Shown piece by piece: positions 1,331 to 55,934 of a DNA stretch of 64,000 nucleotides. Within the stretch, counting starts at the first letter, position 1, and every line of letters begins with the position of its first letter. The stretch lies in assembly GCA_031763025.1 (NCBI GenBank), contig JASSKH010000032.1, positions 3,551,001 through 3,615,000 of the forward strand, in the 5' to 3' direction. A program made the translations under genes and the position numbers. A model generated the notes under the pieces. The model searched no databases. It worked only from the letters and a program-made list of their open reading frames with translations, and was not told the origin of the DNA. Origin of the DNA: Macrocystis pyrifera (Eukaryota; Sar; Phaeophyceae; Laminariales; Laminariaceae).

Positions 1331-1650
1331 GCCCAAATGGAAACATACACACCCCGAAAAAAGCACGATCGGGAAGCATCGCACCAAGTTTGCAAAAGAT
1401 CAATCGGTCTTATTGATATATTGTTCGATGTAATTAATAGCTTCTGTGTATGTTTACTTCCATGTATTTCTGCCCTTGACATACCACTCCGTTGCTTTTT
1501 AACGTTTCCGTAGCCTGTAATAAGTCCTCAGAGTTGAGTTTTGTACGAGAGTTCGAGCTGTCGATGATAGGATCCCTGACAACAACTAAGAACGGTCTCC
1601 CTCTACTTGCTGCGGCAACACTCAACCTATTGAATACCCCCCCCCCCCCC

Positions 1651-2173
1651 TATATTATATACCTGGTACATAGGTTGGGTTGGCGTCGGTTGGCGACGAC
1701 GTTGTAAATCACGCCTCCCACTGCGTTATCTAGACAGCCAGGGTACGTACCGTTTTTTTTTTCTTTTTTCTTTTTGAGTTACCACAGCTGGCGGTCAAGT
1801 TAGATCATTTTTGTGCGGGGAGAACCTTTGCTCCGCGCAAGGGGGATGATCGTATCACGTAGCGTGTATATGGTGAGGCGCCCACGAGGCAGTTACATAG
1901 TAAACCCATTGCTGTCTCCGGACGTGGCCACACCAGAAAAAATCCCAATTCAATGACGCTGTCATCCATATGCAAGAAGCTCCGCCTCTAAAGCGGTTCT
2001 CAGTAGGTTGCAGCTCACCCTTCATGCGACCCGCCCAATACCTCACGGCGCTTCGCGCTTGGTGCAAGCAATGTCTGCCTGGTCGGTGAAAACCCGACAT
2101 GCTCCGACCCGGCATTGTAGGGATGAGAGGGTCTATGGCCATACGACTACGGTCACGCATGATAATGAGTACA
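1651..2173 (+). mobile_element. Repeat family A, full-length copy 1 (523 bp)
   Basis: Preceded by 14 C (1637-1650) and followed by a C-rich run (2178-2185). It matches 43111-43632 along its whole length and the minus-strand copies at 20320-20852 and 55398-55917. Landmarks are GGTTGGGTTGGCGTCGGTTGG near the start (written here as the first 20 or so bases of the homologous head), CACGAGGCAGTTACATAG in the middle and CATGATAATGAGTACA at the 3' end. No protein is encoded. The 5'-truncated relatives elsewhere suggest target-primed retroposition (a SINE-like element), though no tRNA-type A and B boxes are visible. Confidence 0.7.
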
Positions 2174-2185
2174 GCCACCCCCCCC

Positions 2186-4367
2186 GACTACGGAACTCAC
2201 GGAAATCAACGCGTGGGCAGAGGCGAACGTAGATACGTCAGAAAGGGAAGACAGCGGTTCGGGAGGGTTACAGAGAGAGTTCACAAGGGAAGAAGTAAAG
2301 AAGTGTGTATCTAAACTCGAGAATAGAAAGGCAGCGGGGCCAGACCAAATAGTGAATTAATTTTTGAAGTACGAGGGAGAAGGAATGCTTACCATGATGG
2401 TTATGTTGTATAACTGGATACGGAAAACGAGTACGCACCTAGGAGGTGGAGAAAAGGAGTATTAATAGTAGTAAAGTTATTCAAGGAAGGAGATACGGCT
2501 GACCCGGGGAACTATAGGGGGATAACGCTACCAAGCACAGCAGTAGGCAAAACATTTTGAAAGATTTTGAGTGACAGAATGGGAGCGATAATGGAGAAGG
2601 AAGACAAAATATGCGAAGCGCAAGCAGGGTTTAGGAAAAAAAAAAAAAAACCGTAGCTGCGTAGACCATGTGTACACCTTTGGAGAGATTATTCAAGGTA
2701 GGAAAGACGCGGGACTGGCAACGTACCGTTTCTTTCCAGATGTGCAGAAAACCTACGACACAGTATAGAGAAATCGATTGTGGAAAAAAATGTGGGAAAT
2801 AGGAATCAGAGGAAAGATGTGGAGAATGGTGAAAGAGATTACGGAATGTGCGACAAGTGCTGTGATGCTGGACGGGGAAATTTCGAAGTATGTTGATATT
2901 TTCAAGGAGTTGCACAGGGATGTACGTTGTCACCTAACCTATTCAAGATACATATATATTATCTACCTGTTAGTAACAGTCGAGGCAGCAAGGCAGAGAG
3001 TCACGGTAGGGGAAGATACGGTGTCGGGATTGATGTTTGCGGGTGACTTCTCGTGGGGATATCAGAAACACCCGAACGATTGCAGAAACAAATAGAGAAG
3101 GCGCTAAAATACGCCAGGAAATGGAGGGTGACGGCGAACGTCAAGAAATGCGCAGTAGTTGTTTTTAACGAAGATAAGGTAAACCCGATAAGTTTCGGTT
3201 GGAGGTGGGGAGAAGATGAATTGCCGATCGTAGACCACTATACATACCTTCGCGTAGAGATTTCAAAGGATTGCTCTTGGGATACACATATAGCAAAAGA
3301 AGTAGGAAAGGGCAAATCACACGTGGGCAAGATGGATGCGATCCTAATAGACTCGCACCTTGACACCAGGATTACGAGATGTACCCTGATGAATGTGATG
3401 GTGCCAAAGCTAAAGTATGCAGGAGAAGTATGGGAAGGGAACGCGAAAATCGTGAAACAGTTGGAAACAGAACAAATGACAGCAGCTAAAAAAAGTCATA
3501 AGATGCTCAAGTACGAGTAGTAACACAGTATTAAGAGCAGAACTGGGACTGCACCCACTCAAGACAAATAGAGACATGGAGAGTTGAAATGGCTGTACAA
3601 AGTAAGGAACATGCTTAAAAAGAGGTTGCCAGCCATAGTTGATAGAGCTGTATTGGAGAAAGTAACAAAAGGGAGAGCTGGAAAAAGGTGGGATAGTGTA
3701 GTTGAGAAAGTATGGAAGGATATAGGGGGAAACCAAGAAGAGATTATGTCCGCCGGGAAGTGTAGGAGGTATAGAAGAAAGGACAGAAAGAAGGGAAAGG
3801 CTAGCGCTAAGAAACAAGGTGGAATCGTGAAACACTTGGAGATGTACGGGGGATTGAGGGAAGGAATAGGAGTGAAAACGTATTTTCACGGCCCAATGGA
3901 CTTCGCGCATACGCTGAAACTGCGCTTTCGTGTAAGTGACCTGGACCTGCCAGAAGAAAGAGGAATACCAGTATCTGGGAGGAGGAGGAAGTAGATGCAC
4001 AGATGTGCCCGTGTGGCAAAGCAATAGAGAGTAGAACTCACATAGTAGAAGAATGTGAAATATGCAAAGAGGAACGGGATGTGTTGGGAAGAGGAGATCA
4101 GGGAAATAGACGAATGTGACATGGAGGAGTTTGATACACTGAATAGCAGCGAGAAAACGATCGCTACCCTAAGAGACAGATGGTGGCCACAGGAGGCCAA
4201 ACAGGAAGGGGACAAGCTTCGCAAAAAGTTCCTATGTGATATATGGAAAACCACGTAATGAGCGCCCAATTGTTGTGGGTGTCTCTATTCGGAGTAGGGA
4301 CGGTGCTCCGTCTCGAAAGGGATGCGTGGTCAATGGTCAAATGACTAAGGCAAGCAACGAATGAGTA
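2186..4367 (+). mobile_element. Broken LINE (reverse transcriptase and C-terminal zinc knuckle)
   Basis: A degenerate non-LTR retrotransposon in which RT blocks can be read across changing frames: KAAGPDQIV at 2331-2354, then GNYRGITLPS near 2515 and GFR near 2630. The catalytic box reads FAGD at about 3036-3047 instead of the usual FADD. The thumb region follows (3060-3520). A C-terminal zinc knuckle, CPCGK...H....C, lies at 4005-4055. Stops, frame changes and an A-tract inside the RT (about 2637-2650) show it is dead. No endonuclease domain is present, so it is 5'-truncated. It begins straight after a C run and ends ACGAATGAGTAC followed by 14 C, the same tail style as repeat family A. Confidence 0.85.
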
Positions 4368-4381
4368 CCCCCCCCCCCCCC
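4368..4381 (+). repeat. Poly(C) tail of LINE
   Basis: Fourteen C directly follow the LINE end GAATGAGTA. Poly(A) or short non-homopolymer tails are usual for LINEs, so a C tail is notable. Confidence 0.6.
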
Positions 4382-4603
4382 TCAAACTAGGGTGACAGGA
4401 GACCAAATATCAGGAGGTTCCGCCCTGAGAAAATGTATTACTAGGTTCCCCCTCTAACTGCTGCCGTGGCTGCTAAAAGTCTATTATTAGTATTGGGTAG
4501 GTTCCCCCTTTACGAAATCGGCATGAGATGTCCTATGAAAAAGCCCCCCCCCTCTCACTACTATATATAAGTGCCTGAGGTGGCCCCTCCACTACTCTCA
4601 ACT
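4382..4603. other. No gene seen
   Basis: AT/GC-mixed sequence with repeated AGGTTCCCCCT motifs (about 4440 and 4500) and a short C run; no exon or RNA gene recognised. Confidence 0.4.
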
Positions 4604-4715
4604 GCTATTACGGTGGACCGTAGTAAATAGGACCTACGGTACACACAAAAACCTATTTATTTACCTATTTTTACTAACAATATTTGGTCCTATTTACTAC
4701 GGCCCCCCGTAATAG
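4604..4715 (+). mobile_element. MITE family M1, copy 3
   Basis: The best palindromic copy: the left end CTATTACGGTGGACCGTAG mirrors the right end CTACGGCCCCCCGTAATAG. The interior carries the family signature CACAAAAACCTATTTATTT. Flanking CTATTA/TAATAG suggests the inverted repeats extend beyond the ACGGGGG core. Confidence 0.75.
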
Positions 4716-4719
4716 TAAC

Positions 4720-5064: not shown

Positions 5065-5143
<79 letters not shown>
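5065..5143 (+). repeat. 79-base poly(G) tract
   Basis: An uninterrupted run of 79 G. Read on the minus strand it is a poly(C) tail following ...GAATTGTAC. Its exact length may be an assembly estimate, because such tracts are hard to sequence. Confidence 0.8.
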
Positions 5144-5144
<1 letters not shown>

Positions 5145-5397
5145 ACAATTCGAGACAGCTCGATTTATGAGAAACGCCGACGTAAGGAAGGTCAAATGGG
5201 TGGGCACGGGCAAACGTGTCAGATCTAACAGGAACATAGAATCCATTCCGGTCACAAAATATGTACTGGTTCAATCCTTTTGGATTGCAGTCCCGGTGCG
5301 GAGACAAACTACTTAAAATTAGTGGAGTTTGTCCCCAACGCGGGACTGCAGTCTTGAAATGGTCCATGGGTCTACTTGCCCGTCTCTTAAATCGCAG
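5144..5397. mobile_element. Repeat family C segment between poly(G) and poly(C)
   Basis: A 254-bp segment bounded on the left by 79 G and on the right by about 85 C. Its two ends are weakly inverted copies of each other (left, reverse-complemented, CTCATAAATCGAGC; right CTCTTAAATCGCAGC). A further hairpin lies inside at 5280-5346, where GATTGCAGTCCCG pairs with CGGGACTGCAGTC around TACTTAAAATTAGT. It is best read as a non-autonomous element, or two head-to-head elements, with C tails pointing outward. Confidence 0.5.
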
Positions 5398-5456
<59 letters not shown>

Positions 5457-5483
5457 ACCCCCCCCCCCCCCCCCCCCCCCCCC
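5398..5483 (+). repeat. Poly(C) tract, about 85 bases
   Basis: Fifty-nine C, one A (5457), then 26 C. It is complementary to the G tract at 5065-5143, only 254 bases away. Confidence 0.8.
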
Positions 5484-5910
5484 TGATTCGGGTAAAACGA
5501 TAAAAAATGGCATATGTTTCCCCCCCGTTTTAGTGCAAGCAATATCTGCGTGGCCGGTGAAACCCGACGTGCTCCGTTCCGGCATTGTAGGGATGCGAGG
5601 GACTACAGTCATAAATGCCACTACGTTAATGTGTTACTTGACCCCTTTACCCCGCCCTTCTATTCGTGGTGGGCCCTGGGGTCATCGCTTTATCCCCATT
5701 TAAAAGCGTGGCCACATGCGTGTGCGGCTGGCTCACTCAGACTACCCCCCCCCGCCCCCCGCAGTAGTAGGCCCGAGGGCCATCGCGCTATCAATCTCTA
5801 TTTCGTGTTCTCAATATTGTTTGAGACGAGCCCCCTCTCCTGCTAGTAGGGAGCGTGCGAGCCATTTCCCGCTGCCGCCATTGCGGGACCCGACCGCGTC
5901 CACATGCAAA

Positions 5911-6008
<98 letters not shown>

Positions 6009-6905
6009 TAGCGGTAGACGCGATATCCATCGCATCGCATGCATGGTCGCCATTTCGGAGCCTGACCGTTTCTATACGTATCACCCCCCCCCTCCCCCCC
6101 CCCGTCCTTCTCACCGCAAGCAATTGTCCGCTTGGTTGGTGGAAATCCTATTTGCTCCGCTCGACATTGTAGGAGTGCAAAGGTCTAAGGTCATGCGTAC
6201 GACTACGGCCATTCATGATTTGAGCACATCCCTCCCTCTTACCTCAACCCCACCCCCCCCCCGCCCTAGTGGTGTGCCCGACGGCCCTCGCTCGCCGTCC
6301 CGCCATTTCAGATGCCGGCCTTTTACATGCGCATATCATCCCACCTTCTCTTGGGGCCATGCTTCTCGAACCGCGTTGTCCCTAATATTTCTCTTACGCT
6401 TGGAAAAAAAAAAAAAAAACGAAAAGAGATACAACGTTTCCTAGAACAGATTGACAGAGGGCAGGACACCAGGCACGTTTGGAATACCTCTTCGAGGAAA
6501 CAAGAAACGGAAACTCAGGAAAAATATCATGCCGGAAGAAGAAATCTGAGGAAAAATCAGGAGTTTTGAGACAGAACACTCGCTTCGATAAAAGGCGCCC
6601 TTAATATTAATAGTAGGCCCAAGGACCCTCATGCGATCGCAAATTCAGATTCCAACCATTTCATATATGTATCTCCCCCCCCCCCCCCCCCCCCCCCCGG
6701 CGCCGAGGGCCATCGCACTATTTACATATCTGAGCCTGGCCATTTACACATGCATCGCATCCTCTCTCCCCTATGATGCCGGGCCGCAAGGCCGCCGTGT
6801 TGTCACCAATTCAGGGCCTGGCCATTGTTTTATTTTTTTCATCCTCCCGAGGACTGATAAAAATAAAGCTTAACCCTACCATACTCCCTTTTGTCAATGC
6901 CCCAT

Positions 6906-6936
<31 letters not shown>

Positions 6937-7640
6937 CTTATCGTAACAGTAGACCCTGGGGGCCATCGCACGATCGCCATTCCTGAGCCTGACCATTAAA
7001 GTATGCATCTCAGTTCCCCCCCGCCCCTTCGTGGTTGGTGCAACCAATTTCTGCCTAGTCGTAGAAAACCCGACTTGCTCCGTTCTGGCATTGTAGGGAT
7101 GCGAGAATCTATGTGCATATGTGCATACGACTGCGGTCACGCATGGTATCGAGTACTTTACCCCCCCCCCCCCCCCCGTCCCCCCCCCCGTCCCCTAACC
7201 ATTGACTAGCACAAGCAATAAACGACCCCACATGGTCATACGATGACGGCCACGCATGATATCGAGTACACACACACACCCTTAGTATTTGCCCCGAAGG
7301 CCATCGTACTACACCCCGGGCCTGACCATTTAGGTGCGCATCTCTAACCTTTTGATTAGGAGGTTCGAGTGCGCCATCGCACCATACATGACCAACTCGG
7401 ACCCTGGCCATTTTAAGGATGCATCTCACCCCCCCCCCCCCCGTCTCCGCTCTTGAAAGCAAGCCCAGGAGCCATCGCGCTATCGCCATTGCAGAGTCTG
7501 ATCAATTCAGGTTTTGCGTCTCAACTCCTCCCTTCCTGGCAATAGGACCGAGGGCTATGACACTATCTATCGCTGTGTCAGAGCCAGGCCAATTATACAT
7601 GCCTCTCACCACCGCCTTGGCCCCCCCCCTCTCGCCCCCC
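5484..7640 (+). repeat. Cluster of C-tailed repeat units (families A and B)
   Basis: About a dozen copies of a ~75-bp unit (family B) read roughly AGTAGGCCCGAGGGCCATCG, then GCCATT, GAGCCTGGCCATTT and CATGCATCTCA, followed by a C run. Copies start near 5765, 6010, 6268, 6610, 6700, 6945, 7285, 7365, 7455 and 7535. Between them sit 5'-truncated pieces of family A at 5527-5644, 6106-6232, 7027-7160 and 7198-7272. Nearly every unit is bounded by C runs, and all share the plus orientation. The open frames rich in Pro or Gly here are homopolymer artefacts. Confidence 0.65.
5912..6008 (+). repeat. 97-base poly(C) tract
   Basis: An uninterrupted run of 97 C following CACATGCAAAT, the 3' end of a family B unit. 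It is the longest homopolymer in the window. Confidence 0.8.
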
Positions 7641-8049
7641 CTGGTGTTTTATTTTGGACAACCGTGCAACTGAGTTTGCCACCCGTGACGTCCATTTTAG
7701 TCAACCATGGCAAACGTTTGTCAAGCAACCACACGGCATCGGTTTTTCAAGCGTGGTAGCCTTTGTGCGAACCATGTGCAGTAGAGTTCTGCATGTTGTA
7801 GATGAATAAGTTTCTCGGAATATTCTCCATTAAGCCGGGAAAATAAAAACAGGCCCCTGCTTGGCTCTCCTGGTACCACACGGACCTGACCCCACCCGGA
7901 TGTGATCCCATGTGGCATCCTTCTCCCACCCACGAGGTGCAGAAATAAATATGCCGTCGAGGGCCATGAGCGCGAAACGCGAACCGCAAACGGTCAGGAA
8001 TCGTCGGTAGGTAAAACGTCGTCGGATCCAAATAAAAAAGAAAGAAGCG
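7641..8049. other. No gene seen
   Basis: Mixed-composition sequence with no exon, RNA gene or repeat that I can support. Confidence 0.4.
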
Positions 8050-8126
8050 TAGCAACCCGGGAATCGAACCCAGCATCGTAATCATGGTGCTGGTCACCAT
8101 AGACCGCGGAGCTCGACCACCTTCCA
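8050..8126 (-). ncRNA. tRNA-like sequence, probably SINE- or pseudo-tRNA
   Basis: On the minus strand there is an A-box-like TGGTCGAGCTCCGCGG, a 5-bp stem with 7-base loop (ATGGT/ACCAT), and a good T arm (CTGGG TTCGATT CCCGG, B box). The anticodon loop GACCAGC lacks U33 and the acceptor strands do not pair, so it is not a working tRNA by eye. It could be a tRNA-derived retroposon head or a decayed tRNA gene. Confidence 0.4.
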
Positions 8127-12698: not shown

Positions 12699-15600
12699 CT
12701 GACCATGGAAGGCGTTGCCGGTGGGATAAAGTGTTTATATGTACAAGCAAGGATTTTCCCTTTTAAGTGATTGTGAAGACGGAGTCGTTTTCTTGTACTA
12801 ACAGAAAACAGTACTATTTTATTGCAGTTGACGGAATGGCCCAAACCTGACTGCTAATAATACACGAAAATGCGTGTAACTGGCACGTGAAACACATGGT
12901 GAAATCATGCTTTATTTCGCACGTATACAGTCAATATTGCTTTTCAATTGGCCATTTGGCGATGTTCAGCGCTCATTCCAATCATCCCATCCACACGTCA
13001 AAAGGTAACTACAGTAGAATCCAATAGCTTACAACGCAGAAGAAGGTGAATTAATCGGATCATAATGCTCGGCAAACATTTACCGGTACTATTGCCGTCC
13101 CCTTTACGGATGACCCTACCGACTCTCAACCAACGTTCCACCAATCAATCAAATTAGAAAGTGGACATTTCCAGACTAAGCGTGTGGCGCGAGTAGGTGA
13201 GCCTTGAACACACGACGAAACCTTCACGGTACATAGCAAAAAAGACAATCAACATCGGACAATGTGCAGCGCGAGCATGAACCCCCAAAAATGACGGTAG
13301 AAGCAGAAAATGAAGGAACGACACTGCTGTTCGTTTGATTTCGGACAATCAACGTACTGCGGTATAACACGGCTAACGGCAGGGAAAAGGGAGGACGGCG
13401 CGAGCGCGCTTTGAGCTTTGAAGGTCTTGGGCGTGCTGACATGAGGCACGAGGTTTAAATTGTGTCTGGCATACACACATCCCTTGTTGCGACCACACAC
13501 AGCGCTTTCACGTTGTCGTGCGCTCGCGGGTGAGTTGGGTGTGCTGCAAGGACAGACGGATTTCGATCTCGATCCTCGACATCCTAACCTGCCGTTTTGG
13601 GTCGCTGTGCTCAGGATATGTGTAGCACGAATCCAACTCACAGGAAACATGCCCCACAGTAGAATATATGCAGAAAATACTGCTCCCACCCGGCAATGTG
13701 AGCTATTTACGGGGGACCATATTGAATAGGACGTACGGTAAAAAAAACAAAAACCTGGTATATATCTACCTATTTCTACTAACAATGTTGGGTCCTATGC
13801 CCGGCGTCCCCGGTGGCTTGGTAGGTGGTCCGCGTGCCTATCAAGATCAATTTCGTGGGTTCAAGTCTCACCGAGCGCATGCTCGTAGGGGCTTTTTCTT
13901 GCTTAAAAGAGATTGAATAGCGGAAAGCCCGAGAGCGTGAGTTAGCTACATTCGATGAAAATCGACGAGCAGTGGGAATGCTGCACCCTATGCGCGATAA
14001 AAAAATAAAGGCACGTACCGGGGGGGAGAAGGGAAGACACCTGTGACCACGGCTTGTCCAGAAGGTTGTCGAGGGTAAAACCTCTTACGAATTAGGCTGG
14101 AAAGTGAAAGTGATGACTAAAAAAAAATAAAATAAAGTAAAAAAATACGATGATCCCCCGTAAATAGATCATGCGGTCAGGGAGTATATTCCTTAGAACA
14201 CCTTGAGTATCAAATTGGAATAGAAAAAGATGTGTCCGAATTCTGTAGACTGGTTTCGAACAATTCGTCCCCGAAACGATATCGTGGCAACAGTTTCGTG
14301 ATCGGTCAAACACCGCGTCCGGGAGTATGTACATCCAAAAGGAACAGGAAAATGATTGCGGTCTCACTTCGTGGTGTTGCTGATGACGTTGTCGCAGAAA
14401 AAGTTCGCCCCGCACCCCACGGACATTCTGATGCCGTACTTGTTGCTGTCGAAGGTGTTGTTGCTCACGGTGACGTTGAAAGTCTCCAGCATCGCCATTC
14501 CAGAGTTGCCGTTGTCGTGGACGTAGTTGCCTGTATTTCGGTGTCGTTGGTGGTATGGTTGCGGAAACACAACAACAAAAAAAAAAAACGCGAAACGCCG
14601 TCACGGCGACAACGAAAGCGTGTTACCTTAACGCGCCCAAACGCCAGTGGTAACAGCAGCCTGTTCTGATGTTGCAACGGGAGCTATGTGTGGACGAAAT
14701 TGACACACGACACGAAATTGGAGCGCGGAAGTGTGGTGAACTTGAGATTTATTTTTACCAATCCGCTGGAGGATTGAAAAAAAAAATCAGTAATGATAAT
14801 AGATAGTTGTTATGGAAAAGTGAGTTCCCCTAAATTTCATCGTTTTCCTGTTTTTGTTTTTCCCCCCCTTCCCGAAAGAAGATTGCTACATGGGCGTTCT
14901 TGATTTTTAGCCTTCCTAGTGATTTTCCTGAGTTCGGGAACATTTCTCAACTTTTTCATCATTTTCCTGTTACTTTTTGTTTTCGAGAGAATCGAAAATT
15001 TAGAAAAAGGTCGTTCGATATTAACAACAGCCCTTATCATGAATAGACAGACACAAAGACAGACACACAGACAGACTGACGAGTTGACGCGGGCTATGTA
15101 CGACACTGATATACTTTTTCTGAGACTACCGGCTGGAGGAGGGCTATGGTTTAAAGTAAGTCAAAGCTGACTTTCGAGAAAAAAGGGCTACAAAACGCTA
15201 TTCGACAAGCAATCCCAAAGCTTGCAGTAGGTGTACACCGTACCAGGGAAGCACGACCAAAGAAAAGAAAAAAAAGAACGACACTCTACGAAACCCTTTT
15301 CCGAGAGCTAGACAGGGGGGGGGGGGTTCTATTCTAAAACAAATAAATCAAAACATGAAAAGATAAGTCGTTTTGAGTGAGGCGTGAGAGTTTAACGGTC
15401 GCAGTCTTTTGTTTTCGGCCAATATGTTTCTGAATTGACCGGGATCCTTAACCCGATATCGTCGGAATGTGGTGTTTTACCGTACGTTTTCGCGATACAG
15501 TGCTTGTCGGTTGCACTTTTAGCGTTAATCTTGTTAATCTAAATCCGTTCTCAGGGTGACTTGGTAATCGTGTAGAGTTCCTCATGCGAGTAGCCTCAGA

Positions 15601-18600: not shown

Positions 18601-21600
18601 TAGCCAGATGGTTGGTGTATCAGGTGATAGGTACGCCAGGTGTCGGGTTTAGGGGATAGTTGGTATCCCAAATGGTTGCTATGTAAGATGGTTTGGTACT
18701 TGAAATATCTGCTCTGTTCCGATGGTGGTCAAAGGCAGGGTGGGCACAGGCAGACACGGAAAGAAGAAGAAGAAGAAGTGAATACGCAGTTATGGGCAAC
18801 ATACACTAACAGACCCTCGGACACCTGACCATGGCACGGATTAGTTTGGCGATGCGCGTACATGAAAAATCTTGATGTTCATGCCCCCATCATCATCACG
18901 ATAACAACAGCAGCAGCAATGCTTATCGATGCGATCGGCTTATGGGTTCCCTTCATCTGTGCGGAAGACATCTTTCTCGAGTCATTCCGTGAAGAAGGCG
19001 GGCAAGATGAAGGCGCTCACGGCTCATCACGAGCCTACTGAAAAATATATACGGCCAGTCGATTCCGGGGCGGGGTGACGACGAACCGCGTGGTGACGCG
19101 TTTGGGGTACAAGTGATTTAGGGAGAAGGCACAGCTGGAGGCTCGTAGACTGTTGACAGGGAATACTTCATCAAGCATTTAATGAAGTCATCACAACTGA
19201 GTCAGCTATGAGTTCGATCGATTGAGTGGTTGGTACTCAACTTTGAAAGCTGCGCGATACGTCGAGCTTACGTTCTCCTATATAAATTATTGGAGTACGC
19301 TCGAAAAAATTGAAGATATTTTGTGAATTCGACCGAAGCAGTAAGCATTTCGACAAGACTGAAATGGCGTTTGGATACAAACACCAGTACTCGTACGTAT
19401 ACACGTGTACGTGTGCACCATAACTATTATTTCTTCAGATTAAATTGCATAGGGAGCTCAGTCTCCAAATTATAATACACTACGTCAAACGCTTCGCTCC
19501 GCCCGAAACACAATAGAACTGTAATCGTGGTCCTCGACGTGCGCAGAATCGTTTCTTCGTGCCCTGCGGAGCAGACATATTCACCCCCGCTCCTCCTCCC
19601 CCACCTTCCACGTGAGGCCGTAGCTCTCGGTGTCGTGAAACCCAAGGTAAGCCATTTCGGTGTCCTCGATGTCCATCCGAGCCTCGCCCATATTGCTCTT
19701 GGCTCTGCCCTCGCACGTCTCGCCCTCGTCGGTGATGACCTCCGAGACGGCGCTGATATACGACCGTCCATCGGCTTCGTAATCGTCAACGGTGTTCCTG
19801 TCGGTATCCCACGCGAATACCTGACAGGCGTCAAGGGGGGGTGGGGCGGGGGGCGGGGAGGAAATATACTCATGATCATGCATGGCGGTAGTCGTATGGC
19901 CATAGGCCCTCGCGTCCCCACAATGACGGGACCGAGCACGTTGGGTTTTCACCGATCAGGCAGGCACTGCTTGCACCAAGCGGGAGGCCCCATGAGATGT
20001 TCGGTGAGCCACATGAAGGGTGGGGGTGTACTCGATATCATGCATGGCCGTAGTCGTATGACCATAGGGGGGGGGGGGGGGGGGGGGGGGGGGATTCGTG
20101 GATTTTTCCACGTGAATTTCTGATAGGTCTCGAGGGGAGAGGTCGTGGAATTGTCTCACGCAAATACCTGATAAGTATGGAGGGGGAGAGGAGAGGGGTG
20201 GATTTGTTCGGAACTGCCCCAAGCGAGTATCTGGCAAAAATGGAGCGGGGGCGGGGATGTAAGACGAAATTGCGGAATTGCCTAACGCAAATACCTGATC
20301 GGCTTCGACGGGGGGGGGGTGCACGTTGCTATCCATGGACGTAGTCGTAGTAAATGACCATAGACCCTCGCATCTCTACTACAACCCTCGTACCCCTTCT
20401 ATGCCGGGACGGGGTACTTCGGGGCTACACCGACCAGGCAGACATTGCTTGCACCAAGCGCAGCGCACCGTGAAGTCGTGAAATATTTGGTGAGTCGCAT
20501 GGTGGGTGAGCTGCATCCAACCAAGAACCGCTTGTGGGGGAGCCTTTTGTACATAGACATGTTTTATTTTCTGGTTTGGTCACTTCCAGTGACAGCAATA
20601 TGTATTTTATGTATCTGCCATGTGGATACCTTACAATATTTTTACAACATCTTACGGCCATCCCACGTTTGTGCAGTTAAGGTCCTCCGCCCCGCACAAA
20701 CTACTTAACTCGGTCGCGAGCCACGGCAGCCGCCGAAAACCTAAAAACCAGTCCCCTGGGTGTCTAGCTCACGCAGCCATTGGCGTGCTTAACAGCATCA
20801 CTGCCAGCCGACGCCAACCCGGCTTATTTCACGATCACAGGCATAACTGATCGGGGGCGGGGCGGGGGGGGGGTTATAAATAAAACCGCAGCAAACTTCA
20901 ATTGCATGTGGGGAAGGCACTGTAGTTTCAGCAGTTTTTGCAGAAAGAGTCATTGAATATATTGCACGCTGCACACAACTACCAATCTTGTAGACTGGGT
21001 CATGCCCAGCTTGTTACGTTGGGCACGGTGCTTCCTATACCGAGTCGGACCCGCGTGGTACGATGTCACAGTAAGGAACACAGGCATACCCTCAAGATCA
21101 ACAAACAGTGACTGGACAGCACAGAAAACGTGCGTGCGGTTGTTTGTAGGCGTCGCTTGTACCCTTTGCCGCAGAGCTATTAATAGGTGCCGTCAACGCT
21201 GGGGCTTGTATCGATAGCGCGGTCGGATCAACTCTTCTGATGGACTGAATGGAAACCAGTAAACCAAGCACATCATCAACAGCCCCTCGCGTCGCAGTTA
21301 CAGAGAAGTGAACATGTTTTTTTTCGGTTCATGAGAACAATCGAGCCAATTTTCACTTTTACTCTCAACCTGGAGTGCCGCCGTTCACTGTTGTACCTGG
21401 TAGGATGCACCCCAACTTTTAGTGGAAAAAATAACAAGTAGGAACAGAAGCTCTGGCCTCTGACGAAAATATAAGACCCGTTTGGACTCTGATGTAAATA
21501 TCGAACGGCCATTATTTTTACGGCCTTACGTAGATGCACTTAGAGAGGGGGAGAAGCAGATGTCCACCGAGCGAGTGAGCCAACGGGGACGGGAGAGGAA

Positions 21601-28682: not shown

Positions 28683-28883
28683 AATAGTAATAGGGAAAAA
28701 AACGCCCCCCCGCCCCCACGTCGGTGGGATCACAGTGAAGGAGGTATTAATAGTACTGAAACGAATGTAAGAGGCCGGAGATAAATCGAATGGAGAGGCT
28801 TGCGAACTAATGAAATAACTTTTTATTCGGGCAGACTGACAGGAAAGCATGCATGTGAAGACAAGGGAATGAACGTGGGCTTT

Positions 28884-31142: not shown

Positions 31143-31850
31143 CGACAAGTTTCTGCTACACTTGATGGTGCTTGGCTGGTGGTGGAGGTGGTGGTGCTTG
31201 GCTTGAGTATGGTTGTTAGTGCTCTTCGGTCACCACCTGCTACCTGGTTTGCTGTGGAATAGGTGTGCTTGCTTCTCCCAGGACGACACACCTTGTACCT
31301 GATAAGTAGACCATTCAACATGACCAAGCTTGGCGAACTCGAGAGACAGCTTTGAACACGAGCAAAGGAGGATGAATATGCTTTTGTCGGGGCTTCAGAG
31401 ACCCCACCCGCTACTAAATCAGTGGTGTTTTTAGTCGCGCATGGTGACAGCAGGCGACTTATGGATCATGTGATACGAGTATCAGAGCGAGGGTGAATGA
31501 TATATGCTCAGAAAAGATTAAACGTAGCAACCGCACTGCCACTATAGATCAGCCGCAAATTGTTGCGGCCACGACGACCAGCTCGGCGCAAGTACAAGCT
31601 GCAATACCGTATGCCAACATGTGAAACAAGGGTGCCGGACATGCAGGCGCGGGGAGAAGAGTGCGTTTGGAGTTAGAATGGCATTTGCGCCACTCCAACT
31701 TGCTATGATAAACTGGCCATCAAGTGTTCTTTGGGCATCATACAATCTACAGCACGGTATGTTAAAATCGATAGATATTCAATGTGTTTCAGGTTCACTT
31801 CAACCTGTGCGAATGTGCCAGCACAGACGCGTGCTACGATGGGGAGATGC
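31143..31850. other. No gene seen
   Basis: No supported exon, RNA gene or repeat. Confidence 0.35.
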
Positions 31851-32165
31851 CGGCGTCCCCGGTGGCTTGGGAGGTGGACGGCGTGCCCATTAAAATCAAT
31901 TTTATGGGTTCGTGTCTCACTGATTACATACTCGTAGTGACTTTTTCTTGCGTACGAATTGATTAACGGAAAGCGCAAGAAGAGCGTGAGCAACATTCGA
32001 TGAAAATCGACGAGCAGCGGGAATACTGAACCCTACCAGCGAAAACAATGAAGGCACGTACCGGGGGGAAGAAAAGACGACGTCTGTGACCACGGCTTGC
32101 CCAGAAGAAGATTGGTGAGGGTAAAGCCTCCTACAAGTCAAGGTGGAAAGTAAAAGTGAGGACAA
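31851..32165 (+). mobile_element. tRNA-derived SINE family S, copy 2
   Basis: Head CGGCGTCCCCGGTGGCTTGG, B-box region GGGTTCGTGTCTCAC, then the shared body. The A tail is short or lost. More diverged than the copies at 13801 and 57098. Confidence 0.75.
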
Positions 32166-32739
32166 ATACATGTAAGTACGATTTTTCGATGCCAGCACCC
32201 AGTTCGCACTCTTCTCCTTATGCCGAAACGGGAAAGGCTACACTACTCCGCGGCGTTTGACAGCCCATGGCGGTAAGAGTGTGGGAATATGGGCTGGGGT
32301 GGCCGGTCTCATTCTCCGCTGTAGCGCGTGCGGTGAGGGTTGGGCGGTGCACAAAGGGAACTACCGACTCCGGCTATTTTGCGTTCGAAAACACGAGTTT
32401 TCCGCAAAAACGTTGAGATTCGTAGGCTCGCATATGGTCGCCAAACGAGCGTCGCGAGCCTCTTTGGCTGCCGTACACGGCGGGCAACCAGGCTCCGTGA
32501 GGTAGAGAAGATGGAGTCGTCGGTTTCGACCGAGATGAAGGAGCTTTCGCCGCAGGAGGACAGGTACGGTGTTGTAGGTACAAACAGTGTCCACGATTTT
32601 GTTTTTGTACGCGCAGCACGCAGTGTCACATGAAGCGTGGAGGTCCGGTTGTGTTGTGAAGGCCTTTTTGTTTTTGCTCATGCAACTGCCAAGAAAACAA
32701 GACGTTACAAACGAGCACGCGTGCGAGTCACAAAGAGGA
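32166..32739. other. No gene seen
   Basis: Several open frames overlap here on both strands, none with a recognisable product or splice sites. Confidence 0.35.
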
Positions 32740-35599: not shown

Positions 35600-38500
35600 T
35601 CCTGCATCTCAAGATGTGCTCTTTATATTCTATTCTTGGGTCCTAAGCCACCTCCAAGCTCCATTCCCACGCCATCGGTGTGGGTCTGTCATCCCCTCCT
35701 GCGTGCTCCTTCTTGCTTTCTGGTGGTCCCTAACTTGGAGTTTGAAGCGCGACAGCCTCCTCGAAATGGCAACCTGTGTAGTCACCGAGGGGGTTTGAAG
35801 CAAGTGTTCCTTCACCACCCCTTTCCTTCCCATCGATCCACCATCCCTCCCCCCCAACGAAACTAACTTACGGCTGGTCGATGAACTCAATGCCTTGTAC
35901 CCCTAACGCCCAAAGCTCCCCCCTGCTGGAGTGGCAAGTTTGTGACTCCGTTCGTCAAATGACACATGTCCCGGACGATCGTAGTGTTGGTGCTTGCGCG
36001 CCGCGGGGGTAGAGGTGGTTGATCCATCGTGAGCACCACTGCCTCCTCGCAGGTGTATCTGTGCTTGTGGGTCGGCATGGGTGACGTCCAGCAGGATGAA
36101 CGTCTACCTATACTCCCTGTTTGGAGCGTCTCGGAGACCTCCTCTTCTGACGACAATTTCCATCCGCAGATTTCGGTCTACGGTGAACGGTTCGCCGTTC
36201 TCCACTTGGTGTCAGATACCTAGCCACTTCAACGTACTGGACTTCTCGTGGACAAGCGGTTGGTGCTGGGTAACCTGCGCCTCTAGATGCGTGCGTGGCG
36301 GGTGTCGACGTCAACTGCATCGTAACAGGGGCACCTCACCGTCACGTGCTCCTCGATCCCCATGCAGCGCCTATGCATACCCACAAGCTCTGGTGTGGGT
36401 ATGATACGGAGTGGGTCCGTTGGCCTCGCCAAAGACATGCCGTGGCTCCTGTCCCCTGTAGACTCCTATGGCGAGCCTTCGCGAAAGCTTTGGTCTCGGT
36501 CGCATCCAGTGAGTCACTCGGTCCGGGGGTGCGTGCCGTCTCCGGTAGCTCCTCCGACGAAACAGTGTGGGCGGCGTGCCGACCTTGATTCACCGGGTTG
36601 CCCAACTTCTGTTGAGCTTTGCGCAAATTAGTGGTTACGACGGCGTGCGCAGCCAGCATTTCGGCCTCGGAGAGCCTTGGGGCCAGATGCCCCTCTGCGC
36701 CTAGACCCCATTCCAGCCAAGATTCAGGGACGATATCCGCCATCGCTTCCTTCGTCACCCCCCATATGTCTCGAACCTGCCGCAAGCTGCCTCCCAGCTG
36801 AGCAATGATGCTCGATTCCGGGAGCCCCCTCCTCACTTTATCTCCTAGTGGGCCTGTGAGGTCTGCTAGAACCTCCGGCAAGATCCCCACCCTGCTCCCA
36901 ATGGAGGCCGACATTTTCCTCGCTTCTGTCGACAGTAGCCTTAACCCTCCTGCCCCCGTACAAAGACGTACTTGGGCCTGTTGGTAAGGTTTGAGAGTCA
37001 GTCGACTGTCAGGCCACCCCTCCGGGAAGAACGACTGTGCCTCCGCCGCTCCCGGTAGCTCGAGGAATTTCTCGTACGCCCACTGCGCCCCGTTGTCGGT
37101 CTTTCCACTCGCTTTAAGGGACAGCCCCGGATCCAGAGCCCTATCCAGGTAGCTCGTCCGTTGCCCGAGAGGTTCGACGGTGATGAGGGCCGCTGCTTGT
37201 TTGTCGGGTATGTTAACGAGGCAGCGCGCACGCCGGTCCCGCACTACTTCCATTGCTCGCCCCCGCACGTATTCCCCCGTGCCGATCAGGACACTCACCA
37301 ATGTCACCCCTTCTTCGTCTGCGATGCAGACCTCAAGGATTTCAACGCTTTTCAGGAGCGAAATCTCCAACGCCGTCGGGGCATACACTTTGGGTGGTAG
37401 TGCCACTGTTTTGGCGGCGTTGACCACAATATCGATATCATCTAGCTCTCGCCGGAGGAAGGCAAATGCTCAAACCGTGTTGGCCGTGATCACCGTAAGA
37501 CCGAGAGAGATATCGTCCATTTGCGCGAAAGCTTCCACTCCTTCTCTCTCGGACTCCTGTCGATACGGCTTTAGCCCTGGTCACGACGCCAGACAGAACA
37601 TTGCTGGTCCCATGGGGTCCTCTTCCTGGACACATCCGGAGTTTGTGACCGTCCGGGTCTCCGCCGAGTCAATCCCGAAGAACACGTCGGCTGGTCTTGT
37701 ACCGAAGCACTTCGCCACTAACGGCGTGAGCGCTCGCACGCAGTTTGCCACCTCTTTTAGCACTGCCGTCCTTTGCACGGCGTTGAAGGCGTTGGGGGCA
37801 GTCTGTGAGAATGAGCTAGTCGCCCGTCTCGTGTAGCGTCCTATTAGTAGCCCCCAACCCGACATGCGCCACTCCGCCGGGTACGGTGCCCCAAACTGCT
37901 TCACTTTCCGGTTTACATCCGCCAACCGCGACCGCCACTGTCGCATAGCCCCTAAGGTGATGAGCCTCCTCCGAAACATGGCCACGCAAACCGGCCGGCA
38001 CTTTTCCATTAACGCGGTGAGGCTCGACTGTAAGAAGAGCTGCCAGAACTCTTTCGGGAACGCGTCCGGCTCGTCGACGATTCTCCGCCAAGGCTGGTCA
38101 TACCACTTCCGGAGTCCTCTCTGCCGATGTCGGTGTGAATGATGGATTGTAGATGAGCAAATCATCGATCGTCGTTTCTGGGGCCATCGAGGGCCCTTCG
38201 GGGCCTGATGACGTCGACGAGCACCTCGGAGGCGTACTCATCGTCAGGGCCCCACGGGGGGGCATTTCCGTCTTTCGCCTCGGTAGCGTTCGCCAACACT
38301 GCAGCAGGGGAGCTTGACCACCAATATATGTTCCACGTTTCCTGATTCCCCGCTGATCGTAGTTTGGCCAGAAGGTTGCGTGCTGCCACTTTGACCCCTC
38401 CCGCGTGGCGACACGCCGACGACGCTCGTTCAAGCTTCGCCTCGTCCGAAGCTTCCTGGGCGGCATCCCCTTGTCTCAAGTCGCCTCTTCTGGTACACGC

Positions 38501-43086: not shown

Positions 43087-43110
43087 TCCCCCCCCCCTCC
43101 CCCCCCCCCC

Positions 43111-43632
43111 TACACATAGTATACCTGGTGTATATATAGGTTGGGTTGACGTCGGTTGGCGACGTCGCTGGAAAACACGCCTCTCACTGCGTGAGATAGA
43201 CAGCCAGGGCACTGTTTTGATTTTTTTTTCTTGGCGGTTACCACGGCTGCCAGTCAAGTTTGATAAGTTTGGTGCGGGGAGCACTTTTACTTCGCACAAG
43301 GGCGATGATCGTGTCACGTAGTGTGTATAAGATGAGGCACCCACGAGGCAGTTACATAGTAAACCCATTGCTGTCTCTGGAAGCGGCCACACCACAAATC
43401 AAATCAATTCATTGATGCTGTTATCCGTAAACAAGAAAATCCGCCTCCAAACCGGTTCTTAGTAGGATGCGGCTCACCTTTCAAGCGACTCGCCCAACAC
43501 CTCACGGCGCTTCGCGCTTGGTACAAGCAATGTCTGCCTGGTCGGTGAAAACCCGACTCGCTCCATACCGGCATTGTAGGGATGCGAGGGTCTATGGTCA
43601 TACGACTACGGCCATGCATGACAATGAGTACA
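43111..43632 (+). mobile_element. Repeat family A, full-length copy 2 (522 bp)
   Basis: Collinear with 1651-2173 over its whole length, preceded by about 20 C and T (43087-43110) and followed by GTACACCCCTCTCACC. Few gaps separate the two copies, so they are the youngest pair in the window. Confidence 0.75.
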
Positions 43633-43849
43633 CCCCTCTCACCCTCTCCCCGCCTCCCGCGCGCCTCTACCTCGCCTCCCCACTATCTCTTATGCCCCCC
43701 CCTCGCTGTCACCCCCCGTCGCGATGTCCTCGCCGTAGGAGAGCGGAGGGCCGAGCACGATAGAGCGCGCTTCCGACCGTACTTTGGTGCATACTCAAGA
43801 ACACAGCATCCCTCGTGAGATGTAGGGCGAGCTAATCGTCACTGAACAT
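43633..43849. other. C-rich spacer
   Basis: Pyrimidine-rich sequence with no supported feature. Confidence 0.35.
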
Positions 43850-44829: not shown

Positions 44830-47800
44830 TATGGGCACTTCAACGTCTACCCATGGATTGCACACGAACACCACTGACACCACATTGACATCCCACAGAC
44901 CACACGCACCCCAGAGATATCACACGGGCGCCCCACAAATGTCCTACGGACGCCCCACGGTCGATCCACAGGCGACATTCATGTGACCCGCGGGCACCCC
45001 CCCCCCAAGGACACCCAAGGACACCCCACGGACGCCCACAGTCACCTGATCGGCCTCTCACTGAAACCCCTTAGACACCCCACGGACACTCCACGCACAA
45101 CCCACGCACACCCCACGGGGGGTAGATATGAGGTGTTTGTGGGGTATCCGTGGGGTTCCTATGGGTAGTCCGTGGGGTGTCCGTGGAGTGTGCTTGGGGC
45201 GTCCGTTGGGTGTACTTGGGACGTCCATGGGGTGTCGGTGGTGTGTGCATGGGGCACCCATGTGGTGTGCTTGGGGCATCCTTAGGACGGTGATGGTGTC
45301 TGTGCGGTGTCCGTGGCGCGCCCATGGAGCGTCCGTGGGGTGTTCGTCGGTAGTCTGTGGGGTGTCAGTGATATGTCCGTGGGTTGTGCGTGGGGTTTCC
45401 GTGGATCTATGGGGCGCTCATGGGGCGTGCGGGCTGTGTCCGTCGGGCGTCCGTGGGGCGTCCCCGGGGTGTCCATGAGCTGAGCGTGTGAGTCGCACGC
45501 CGGTCGCAGATGCATCGCTCGTGGGGCGCCCGTGAGGAATCGACGGGGCGTCCGTGGGATGTGCATGGGGCGCCCATGGCGTGTGCTTGGGGCGTCCGTT
45601 AGGTGTCCTTGGGGCGTCCATGGGGCATCCGTGGGGTGTGCGTTGGGTGCCCATGAGGTGTCCGTGGGACGTCCGTGGGGTGGTCGTGGGGCGCTCATGG
45701 GACTCCCGTGAGCTGTCCGTGGGATGTCCGTCGGTAGTCGTGGGGTTCCCGTGAGGCGTCCTGGAGGTGTCTTTGGGGTGCTTCTGGGGTTTGATTGGGG
45801 CTGTCAGTGGGGTGTGTTGGCCGTTCCAGTAGGATGCCTGTAGACACTCATGTGGCGTCCGTGGGGTGTCCTTGGGCGATCCATGATCCGTCTGCTGGTA
45901 GTCTGTGGGGGCTCTATGGGGTACCTATCGGATGTCCGTGGGCCCACGATGTGCTCATGGGTGTGCGTCGTGTTCTCGTGGGGTGTCCATGGGGCGTCGG
46001 TGCGGTGTTCATGGTGTGGGTGTAGCGGGGTGTCGATAGGTCGCACGCGAGTCGCACGTAGGTCACCTCTGGGGCGTCCGTGGAGCGTCCGTGGGGCGTT
46101 CGCGAGATGTCCATGTGGAGTCCATAGGGTGTGTTTGGGGCGTCGAATGGATGTCCGTGCGGTGCCCACGGGGCGTCCGGGGTGTCCGTGAGGAGTCCGT
46201 GCGTTGCTCCTGATGCGCCCTTGGGGCATCCGTGGGGTGTCCGTCGGGTGTTAGTCGCTAGTCCGTGGGATATTCGTGGGGTGGGTGTACCGCGCCGTCT
46301 GTGGGATGTCCGTGGGGTTTCCCAAGGAGCATCCGTGGAGTGTTCGTGGAGTATCCATGGGGGCTCCATGGGGCGTCCGTGGGGTGCCCGTGGGGCGCTC
46401 ATAAGTCGTTCATGGGGTGTCTGACAATAGGCCGTGGGGCGACCACGGGGGAGGTTTTGCAAGACTTTTTGTTGGTTGCACCTTGATTACACATGGGTCG
46501 GACATGGGTCGCAAGTAAGGCGTCCGTGTGGGGTCTGTGAAGCGTCTGTGGGATGTCCGTCGTGGGACCATGGCGTGTTATTGGGGAATCCGTCGGTTGT
46601 TCGTGGAGTGCCCATGAAGTGCTGGTGGGGCATCCGTGGGGTACCCGGATTGCGCTCGTGGGTCGATGAGGCGCCCATGGGTTGGGCATAGTGTGTCCGT
46701 GGGACGTCCGACGGTCTGTAGGGTGTCCGTTTAGGGTCCGAAAGGCATCCATGGGGTGTCCATGGGGCGCCCATGGCGTGTTCGTCAGGTGTCCATGGGG
46801 CGTCTGTTGGTAGCGCGTGGGATGTCCGTGGGGTACCTGTCGGGGGCCCGGGGGGTCCACGGGGCGCTCACGGGGTGTACGCCGTGTACTCGTCGGGTGT
46901 CCGTGAAGCGTCCGTGGGATGCTAGTGGGGCAGGTGTGGTGAGATGTCTTTGGGTCGCACGTGGGTCGTGCGTGCGTCGCACGTGGGTCAACATGGGGCT
47001 TCCGATGGGCGTGCGGGGGGCATCCTCGAGGTGCCTGTGTGAAACCCATGGGGTGTGTTCGGGGCATCTATGGAGTGTTTGTGCGGTGCCCACGGGGCAT
47101 CTGTGCGGTGTCCGTGTGGTCTCCATGGGATGCCCGTGTGGCCTCCGTGGGGTGTTTGCGGGGCGTCTGTAGCGTGTTCGTGGGACACCCTTGGGGTATC
47201 CGTGGGGTGTCCGTGGGGTGTCCGTCGGCTGTCGATCGGTAGTCCATGGGGTATTCGTGGGTTGGGTGCACCGGGCCGTTCGTGGGGCGTTCCTGGGGTT
47301 GCCCACGTGGCGTCCGTGGGGCGTCCGCGAAGTGAGTTTCGCGGGATCTCTGTGGGTAGCACGTCGATCACTTTTGGGGCGTTCGTGGGGTGTCTGTAGG
47401 GCATGTCTGTGGGGAGCCCATGGGGTGTTTTTGGGGCGTCCGTGGGGTGTTCGTGGAGTGCCCATGAGGTGTCCGTGGGGCGTCTGTGGGGTACCCGTAA
47501 TAGGCCTGCGGGGCCGCGGGGCTCCCATGGGTTGTGCGTGGATTGTCTGTGGGACGTTCGTCGGTTGTCCGTGAGGTGTCCGTGGAGTGTTCGTGAGGCG
47601 CCCGAGGGGTGTCCGTAGGGCGTTCTTGTGACGTTAACGGGGTGCGCGTGGTGTGTTCGTGGGGGTCGGTTAGTGTCCGGGGAGCGGCCGTGGGGTGTCC
47701 ATAGGGTGCCCGTGGGGCTTGTGTGGGGTGTCGGTGAGACGGGCGCAGTGGGGTCCATGTGGGTCGAGCATTGATTGCACGTGTGTCGTCAGTGGGGCGC

Positions 47801-48140
47801 CTGTAAAGCGTACATCGGGTATGCTTATGGTGTGCGTGGGGCGTCCGTGGGGTGTCCGTGGGTCTTCGTTGGGGAGCCATGCGGTGGGCTTTGGACCTCC
47901 GTGAGGTGTCCGTCGAGCGCTCATTGGGCATGCGTGTGTTGTCTGTGGGACGCCCATTGGGTATCCATGGGGTGTTCTTGGGGGAGGGGTCTCGTGCAAG
48001 TGCAGTGGGGTGTTCTTGGGGGAGGGGCCTCGTGCAAGTGCAGTGGGGTGTTTACGGGTTGAGCGTGACACCCGTTGGGCATCATTGGTGCGTCTGTAAA
48101 GAGTCTGTGGGGCCGTCAGGGAGACGCTCGTGGGCATTAT
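44830..48140. repeat. 3.3-kb degenerate decamer array (GTCCGTGGGG-like) with strand switch
   Basis: Built of 10-11-base units such as GTCCGTGGGGT, GCCCATGGGGC and GTTCGTGGGGT. From about 44870 to 45118 the C-rich strand is on top (CCCACGGACACC); from about 45125 on the G-rich strand is on top, so the array changes orientation once. A second-level marker with GTCGCACGTGGGTCGCACG-like words recurs near 45490, 46035, 46485, 46953, 47357 and 47759, about every 400-550 bp. Long open frames on both strands arise because the unit seldom makes a stop codon. One exact ~45-bp duplication ends the array (about 47965-48045). Confidence 0.8.
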
Positions 48141-54254: not shown

Positions 54255-55274
54255 CTGGACCAGTCAGATGTTCGATGAATATACAACATGGTTCAGGTCG
54301 GGTATCAAAGGAAGGCGGTGGGGTCAGACGGACGAGGTAGAAGGCACGTTTGAAACTGACTGCTGACGTTGTCACACCTTGGATAAATCACGATTTAGAT
54401 TCTCTAGATCCTAATCTGCCGTTGTGAGGTGCCGTGCAGGGTCTGTGTTCAGCAGTGGTACAGGTCCGATCCAAGAAACGTGTCCTGGATCACAAGACTT
54501 TGCTTCTCCCATCCTCCAACGTGAGCTAGATCATACAAAAACCATGGTCCATGTGTTTTTCCTGAAAGGTCTGGATCACCAAGTGGGAATCAATGATCTG
54601 TGTGAGGTGTGGATTTGTTCGTTGGGTAGCTCAGAACTGCCGGGAAAATACAGTGCAGACCCTATCAGCGGTGCATCCTTCCACACGTGGCCTCGTGCTG
54701 GACGTTGTGGTCCACAGGCTTCGCGCGAGTCGCTGGTAGCCGGGCTCATGTAGCCAGACGGAATATAGCATGCTCAAGAGATGGCTCTCTTGGGCCCAAC
54801 CTTCGCGGTAAAAATGGATGCAAGTACGAGGAAAGAAACCGAAGATTGACACCTCTTGCTACCACGGCTTGTACAGCACGCCTGATGAAGGCAAGACCTC
54901 CCGCGGGGTTGACATAGAGAGTAAACGTGATTGCTACGGAATTATATACCAAACAAAACGTCGTACTCATCGCAACCTTGAGCGACGTAGGCCACGTACT
55001 TATCTCACCGGACGGTCAGCTGCTGCAGCCTGCAGAAAAATCAAAACTGAGATGGGCTGGGAACAGTGTTGGAAGATATTCAGCGGAGGAAACGAAGTTT
55101 GAGAAGCCACGACAAGGGGTGAAATCAACTTCGTGCTCAAGGTCTCCCGGGTAGACCGTGACGCCGGGTAAGATGACACGGATGCCTGGTGCAAGGCACA
55201 GTACCCGACACCGTATGCATCTCGGGAATAGTCGAGATGCGTTTTCTTCTTTTTCATGATGGGGAAGGGAGGGG
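54255..55274. other. No exon 1-3 homologue seen upstream of epimerase gene 2
   Basis: Searched by eye on the minus strand for the exon 3 signature (DTESYGLTWK) and found none. Some open stretches are unrecognised. Confidence 0.4.
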
Positions 55275-55380
55275 TTATACTCGATATCATGCATAGTCGT
55301 AGTCGAATGACCATAGACCCTCCCAGCATCCTACAATGCCGGGACGGGGCACGTCGGGTTTTCACTGACCAGGCATGCTT
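55275..55380 (-). mobile_element. Repeat family A, 5'-truncated copy
   Basis: The last ~105 bp of the family in minus orientation (ATACTCGATATCATGCATAG to GACCAGGCATGC), bounded by G-rich runs at 55261-55274 and 55382-55397. Confidence 0.65.
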
Positions 55381-55397
55381 TGGGGGAGGAGGGGGGG

Positions 55398-55917
55398 TGT
55401 ACTCATTATCATGTATGGCCTTCATCGTATGATCATAGACGCTCGCATTTCCATAATGCCGAGACGGAGCACGTCGGAGTGTCAACGACCAGGCAGACAA
55501 CGCTGAATCAAGCGCGAAGCACCGTGAAGAGTTGGGCGAGTCACATGAAGGGTGAGCTGCATCCTACCAAGAACCGCTTTTGACGCGGATTTTGTTGCAT
55601 ATGGATGGCAGCGTCAATGGACTGATATAGTTTCTGGTGTGGTCACTTCCAGAGACAGCAATGGGTTGACTATTTAACTCCCCCGTGGGTGTCTTACAAT
55701 ATACCCTGACACACATTACGCGATACGATCACCCCCTTTGTGCAGAGTTAAGCTTCTCTTCGCCCTAAAATGATCTATCTCGATCGCCAGCCGTGGTGAC
55801 CGTAAAAATAAAACGAAGTATTCTCGTTGTCTAGCATACGCAGTGAGAGGAGCGCTTTACAGCGTCGTTGCCAACCGACGCCAACCCAACCTCTATCTTC
55901 CCTAGGCATATGACATC
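55398..55917 (-). mobile_element. Repeat family A, full-length copy (520 bp)
   Basis: Collinear with 1651-2173 reversed: 3' end TGTACTCATTATCATG at 55398, head GCCAACCGACGCCAACCCAA near 55870. Bounded by G runs on both sides (55391-55397 and 55918-55934). Confidence 0.7.
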
Positions 55918-55934
55918 GGGGGGGGGGGGGGGGC

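Follow-up and report, generated by a model that had tools for sequence, protein, structure and literature searches.

Elements of the window

A 64-kb window of the Macrocystis pyrifera genome, the whole stretch of DNA that was analysed, contains a decayed long interspersed element (LINE) and 13 copies of a short repeat, family A, lying among tracts of C. All the counts and tests given below were made within this one window. Family A is about 520 bp at full length, and four of its 13 copies are full. A1 lies at 1651-2173 on the forward strand (model positions 2-517), with C14 directly 5′ of it at 1637-1650, and A2, also on the forward strand, lies at 43111-43633 and is preceded by C10-T-C12. A3 (20850-20319) and A4 (55917-55396) are on the reverse strand, the latter with C16 ahead of it. 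All four are matches to a profile model of 518 positions, which was built from the aligned full copies A1, A2, A3 and A4 only. A search of the window with this model gave 14 matches at E<1e-3, namely the 13 family A copies (the four seeds included) and the end of the LINE.

The remaining nine copies are truncated at the 5′ end, with model starts at 351, 359, 393, 402, 407, 415, 416, 476 and 478. The 3′ end, by comparison, is retained in 11 of the 13 copies (model end 515-518 of 518). Four of the truncated copies are on the forward strand, in or beside an array of short units P described below. The first, at 5530-5631 (model 402-500), stands ahead of the array, has lost its 3′ end and has no 3′ C run. 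Those at 6116-6228 (model 407-516) and 7026-7156 (model 393-515) have a P unit on either side, and 7232-7270 (model 478-516), which has no strict 5′ C run, shares the P spacer of 7026-7156. The other five are on the reverse strand. The copy at 20067-20026 (model 476-517) has C27 at its 5′ junction, and directly behind its tail follows 20022-19865 (model 359-516). Similarly, 55378-55276 (model 416-516) sits directly behind the C-rich tail of A4. The profile matches at 10487-10325 and 584-492 complete the set, and the latter lies antisense within an open frame at 122-688. The full copies share 66-84% pairwise BLAST identity and thus differ by 16-34%, which indicates that the family A copies are old.

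A LINE and a short element that end alike

The LINE is found on the forward strand at 2186-4367 and extends from the reverse transcriptase to the 3′ end. It is apparently 5′-truncated, its 5′ limit being placed by inference because the window offers no second copy to define it. Its reading frames are broken by many stops and frameshifts. When the frames were picked by eye and pieced together with X, a match to RVT_1 was obtained (E=1.5e-16), and the best PDB matches of the N-terminal 431 residues were 8c8j, an ‘RNA-directed DNA polymerase’ (5.7e-11), LINE-1 ORF2p (from 1e-10) and R2 (1.6e-4). Among nine unpieced segments, two match RVT_1, weakly and below the cut-off. By the RVT_1 and PDB matches of the pieced frames, a reverse transcriptase of the non-LTR (long terminal repeat) type is present.

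The LINE sequence begins at once after the C8 that closes A1 (2178-2185), and C14 stands at its 3′ end (4368-4381), as the initial annotation had stated. It is, apparently, nested in the tail of A1. The same annotation had also proposed that the LINE and family A end alike, and this was confirmed independently of it, because the model was built from family A copies alone. The model aligns co-terminally with the last 66 bases of the LINE (4303-4368, forward strand; model 442-515 of 518; E=1.2e-4 over the window), and shuffling 4281-4372 by dinucleotides 100 times never produced a reportable match. That the window holds a LINE and a non-autonomous partner with a common 3′ end is, therefore, well supported.

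A search of copy A2 for an RNA polymerase III head gave no Rfam match above chance. Across the window, Rfam at gathering scores returned nothing and ARAGORN called no tRNA; both are insensitive to decayed heads, because they also missed the tRNA-like head of another repeat, family D, which was read by eye. Neither a DNA pattern nor the LINE protein pieces found relatives in prokaryote and viral contigs, where little was to be expected.

C tracts beside the insertions

Counting both strands, there are 40 runs of at least 8 C in the window. Homopolymers of at least 12 are of C/G in 19 cases and of A/T in six, those of at least 10 number 26 against 13, and those of at least 8 number 40 against 34. 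The C/G excess thus lies in the long runs. Many runs of at least 8 C adjoin family A, the LINE or the P array, while several, such as those at 15315, 35165, 39307 and 52697, have no identified element alongside. There are also very long homopolymers, namely G79 at 5065-5143, C59-A-C26 at 5398-5483 and C97 at 5912-6008, whose assembled lengths are possibly unsure. Between the first two lies a stretch of 254 bp (5144-5397) with an inverted repeat seen by eye, flanked by G79 and by 86 C interrupted by one A.

For the tests, the 13 family A copies and the LINE were taken as the insertion set (n=14), and a strict C run was defined as one of at least six C inside the 20 bases adjoining an insertion end. 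Such a run is met at 0.0143 of the window positions. At the 5′ side it was found in 10 of the 14 insertions, including all four full copies, and at the 3′ side in six; a G run was found on either side of none. The binomial P for the 5′ excess over all 14 is about 4e-16, a value that treats the insertions as independent, an assumption only partly valid. Outside the cluster at 5.0-7.8 kb, a 5′ run is present in seven of ten insertions and a 3′ run in five. The control repeats (13 copies of families D, M and E, with ends taken from BLAST) have a 5′ run in 0/13 and a 3′ run in 1/13, and the 5′ difference between the insertions outside the cluster and the controls has a hypergeometric probability of about 5e-4 by our own arithmetic. 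A strict 5′ run is missing in four insertions, 584-492(-), 10487-10325(-), 7232-7270 and 20022-19865(-), the last of which has the short C-rich tail of another A copy directly 5′ of it.

The initial annotation was right that the four full copies are C-rich on both sides of their own sense strand. The C fraction of the adjoining 25 bases, 5′ and 3′, is 0.60/0.56 for A1, 0.84/0.68 for A2, 0.80/0.52 for A3 and 0.68/0.60 for A4, a range of 0.52-0.84. It had further described the truncated copies as bounded by C. The truncation itself (9/13) stood, and the bounding was overstated, as among these nine a 5′ run is seen in five, a 3′ run in three and both in one.

Stacking of the elements was also observed. 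The LINE lies behind the C8 of A1, and A copies lie right behind the tails of other A copies at 20.02 and 55.38 kb. BLAST homology of A1, A2 and A4 extends into the upstream C tract and ends within it.

Arrays of short units with C-rich spacers

Units P, of about 75 bp, form an array in a single orientation at 5665-7608 on the forward strand, several of them with C spacers. Twelve matches to the unit at E<0.02 (nine of them seeds) are all on the forward strand in 5.66-7.61 kb, and elsewhere E is at least 0.48. Three truncated A copies lie inside the array and one just ahead of it. Two of the longer P-P spacers contain A copies framed by C-rich stretches. Among the four P-P spacers of at most 25 bases, two are C tracts (C23G and C14GTCTCCGC). 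On the forward strand, C24 at 6675-6698 and C14 at 7429-7442 each have a P unit on either side and no insert. This part, 5.7-7.6 kb, had been read as a set of unrelated elements separated by C tracts; it is better understood as a local, partly C-spaced array of a ~75-bp unit that A fragments have entered.

On the reverse strand, a second region (19789-20305) holds five Q units of about 48 bp with C-rich spacers. All five are seeds, and other matches in the window have E of at least 1.5. Two truncated A copies lie between Q4 and Q5, after C27. By eye, the first bases of A3 (20853-20840, reverse strand; CGATCAGTTAT) resemble the start of Q1 (20305-20290, reverse strand; CGATCAGGTAT), which may be due to chance or be what is left of a target duplication. 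Since some array spacers are C-rich without an insert and others hold A, the tract itself looks like the target. The A copies in the P and Q arrays, and the one just ahead of P, are not independent events, because arrays grow.

Proposed mechanism and alternative explanations

The window shows a common 3′ end, truncation anchored at that end, C and never G 5′ of the insertions, stacking behind tails and empty C-rich spacers. On these observations, family A is probably a non-autonomous retroposon of about 520 bp, moved by the LINE, which enters C/G homopolymer through target-primed reverse transcription as the LINE does, and we are moderately confident that such homopolymer is the preferred target within the window. 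The element at 2186-4367 would be a decayed, apparently 5′-truncated copy of the LINE that moves family A, and the common last ~70 bases may be how the LINE enzyme picks family A RNA. The enzyme would select a C/G homopolymer or C-rich tract that is already present and nick its G strand. This would release a G-rich 3′ end able to pair with the RNA at its C-rich 3′ terminus and to prime reverse transcription. Nicking and priming in the tract would place each copy within it, with its sense parallel to the C strand and often 5′-truncated. The C tail of the copy may in turn become a new target, from which A-C-A and A-C-LINE stacks would follow. The 3′ C tail could be carried by the RNA or supplied by the target, the two being inseparable in this window. 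The initial annotation had suggested the main parts of this reading, and its LINE/short-element pair, 5′ truncation and C tract target are supported in the window, with the exception of a further repeat, family C, that it had included.

Several observations weigh against this interpretation. C runs on both sides had been taken as a rule, which was an overstatement; a 5′ run is usual, and strict runs on both sides are present in only 4 of the 14 insertions. There are two clear exceptions, as neither flank of 584-492(-) carries a C run and 10487-10325(-), with a 3′ C run only, has no 5′ C tract at all. The other two of the four short P-P spacers (TAACCTTT and CAACTCCTCCCT) are not C tracts. There is one LINE copy in the window, which starts just before the reverse transcriptase and is without the endonuclease region. 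No outer target duplication was seen beyond the tracts, in a comparison made with no control run. A 3′ stem-loop was sought by covariation in eight A tails and the LINE (nine of the 14 insertions), and none was convincing. In one hairpin none of the pairs showed a change of both partners, and its covariation score was reached by 345 of 500 shuffles; a second was weak, both partners having changed in two of nine pairs, with 30 of 500 shuffles as good. As for folding against shuffles, four A tails were about equal to them (z -1.09 to 0.06), and the LINE tail gave z=-2.16.

The 5′ boundary of the full copies also needs caution. The 5′ ends of the model's seeds were cut by the analyst at the C tracts, so the model cannot prove a sharp boundary, and the BLAST homology of A3 does not set in until 20820, some 30 bases into the element. 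The 5′ C tract of the full copies could also be part of the element's own head. At 20067(-) this does not hold, since that copy is truncated at model position 476 and yet begins at C27. The start of the LINE sequence right after C8 argues likewise, if its 5′ limit is correctly placed. Moreover, the A copies are 16-34% divergent, so that tracts of pure C may be the product of regrowth after the copies inserted.

Such regrowth is part of an explanation without any target choice, by which an ordinary LINE and its non-autonomous partner carry a C-rich 3′ tail, and the upstream C comes mostly from neighbouring tails and growth by slippage. The tails of other copies do explain some of the 5′ C (the LINE, 20022 and 55378), pure tracts beside divergent copies suit it, and so does the lack of 5′ C at the two exceptions. 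It is nevertheless an unlikely account, though the strongest of the alternatives, because the four full copies have a 5′ C-rich tract with no A or LINE match directly upstream, and because the insertions outside the cluster differ so clearly from the controls. It is less likely still that C-rich minisatellites simply caught and amplified A fragments, with no target preference. P and Q are indeed local arrays with C-rich spacers, and the model starts of the A fragments in or next to the P array resemble one another (402, 407 and 393, with one at 478); what stays unexplained is the LINE, the absence of G runs and the full copies that lie away from these arrays, at 1.6, 43.1 and 55.9 kb.

The 5′ C run might, alternatively, arise in the course of insertion, through untemplated nucleotides, a template jump or twin/dual priming, rather than come from the target. 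Homopolymers at the 5′ end are known at L1 insertions, where poly(T) heads are described as inverted poly(A) tails (PMC2837659). Inverted tails would here be expected to give G on the sense strand, which no flank has, and C spacers without an insert exist; this origin is thus quite improbable, and untemplated addition of C was rejected on grounds of strand, as we infer them. It is hardly credible that family A represents a DNA transposon whose ends are C-rich. The ends of A1, A2 and A4 are similar, and A2 alone has a loose inverted match of about 18 bases between its 5′ and 3′ ends, which is no better than shuffles (222/500). Ends of the transposase type, which the initial annotation had set against retroposition, were looked for in 45 bases per end, and none of the four full copies has significant terminal inverted repeats (198-500 of 500 shuffles as good); nor, as noted above, was an outer target duplication seen. 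Truncation at the 5′ end with a fixed 3′ end, together with LINE homology at that end, also speaks against a transposon.

Beyond family A itself, it is conceivable, at somewhat less than even chances, that there is a brown-algal LINE lineage whose insertions, like those of its short parasites, go specifically to C/G homopolymer. In such a lineage the C tract would be target, primer site and RNA tail at once, each insertion would create the next target, and unrelated elements would line up head to tail, all facing the same way, much like LINE arrays at telomeres.

Other repeats and features

Family D is like a short interspersed element (SINE), with copies at 13801-14145, 57098-57444 and 31850-32166 on the forward strand and 33349-33132 on the reverse. 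All three copies that reach the head have a tRNA-like one, in which stretches like the A- and B-boxes were read by eye from motifs that we take to be the usual ones. Its tails are A-rich in two of the four copies, one with A33, and C runs are present in 0/4. The C tracts thus go with the family A and LINE group, and not with every retroposon of the window.

Family C, which had been said to end like the LINE and family A, has two BLAST copies (1268-1329 and, on the reverse strand, 5180-5119), both of which run into long C tracts; neither has a C run where its homology ends on the 5′ side. It shares only GTAC, about four bases, with the A/LINE 3′ end. GTA precedes 3 of 93 runs of at least 6 C and 31 of 1569 runs of 3-5, without clear enrichment, and its membership of the 3′-end group was therefore rejected.

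A palindromic family of about 115 bp, resembling miniature inverted-repeat transposable elements, has six copies (972-1212, 4601-4718, 23898-24025, 24104-24223, 28575-28702); it served as a control, and C7 lies downstream of one copy. A tRNA-like relic was seen by eye at 8040-8115(-), with a T-arm-like GGTTCGATTCC, and is not called by ARAGORN. An 11-bp minisatellite (GTGGGGTGTCC-like) fills about 3 kb at 45003-48052, which closes with 38-bp repeats. Frames at 36342-38237(-) resemble, by eye, another reverse-transcriptase element, and 36342-37469 has no Pfam match at 0.001. A frame at 61125-62111 matches the integrase core (rve, E 7.9e-7, slightly below the curated cut-off). Beta_helix is matched by frames in two places, at 12.4-12.8 kb, slightly under the cut-off, and at 18.0-18.6 kb; these frames are presumably akin to mannuronan C5-epimerases, in keeping with a brown-algal source.

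Relation to known systems and significance

In another brown alga, Ectocarpus, RTEX-N1_Ec32 is a non-autonomous element of about 600 bp, whose 3′ end is common with RTE-X LINEs and whose 5′ region is of unknown origin (PMC12477816). It thus resembles family A in being short and non-autonomous, with the 3′ end of a LINE and a 5′ part of unexplained origin. It differs in that the section on the element gives no poly(C) target or tail, the terms poly-C and homopolymer being absent from the main text (PMC12477816). The present LINE may be linked to Ectocarpus RTE-X by analogy, the two having been compared by description and not by sequence.

A 3′ end common over tens of bases is also a feature of stringent LINE/SINE pairs, which family A and the LINE resemble in this respect (PMC3747384). 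The tails given for such pairs in that source are (A)n, poly(T) or short repeats, with no poly(C) among them, and green-algal RTEX tails are (CA)n, (CAA)n, (CCAT)n, (ACAATG)n and (CTTGTAA)n (PMC3747384).

Insertion inside a simple repeat, as proposed here, has precedents. There are LINEs specific for such repeats, including Togen in (TG)n, some HERO families in microsatellites and others in telomeric repeats (PMC4640811). The target given there by its sequence is a two-base repeat (PMC4640811), whereas here it would be a C/G homopolymer, with a short parasite sharing the target. Truncated L1 insertions with 5′ poly(T) are similar to the present copies in having a homopolymer at both ends, and such stretches have been suggested as future targets (PMC2837659). 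The two ends of L1 are, however, complementary (T and A), while those seen here are C and C on one strand (PMC2837659). Among the matches listed in our literature searches, none named a C/G homopolymer as a LINE target, which is a weak negative, as bracketed terms like poly(C) are unsearchable.

A self-renewing, poly(C)-specific lineage may exist across the genome, by extrapolation from one window. If C/G homopolymer is truly the target of a LINE, simple-repeat targeting would be extended to a one-base repeat. Such a target would also give a reason for the C/G runs in this genome, and the element would have a harmless landing site that renews itself.

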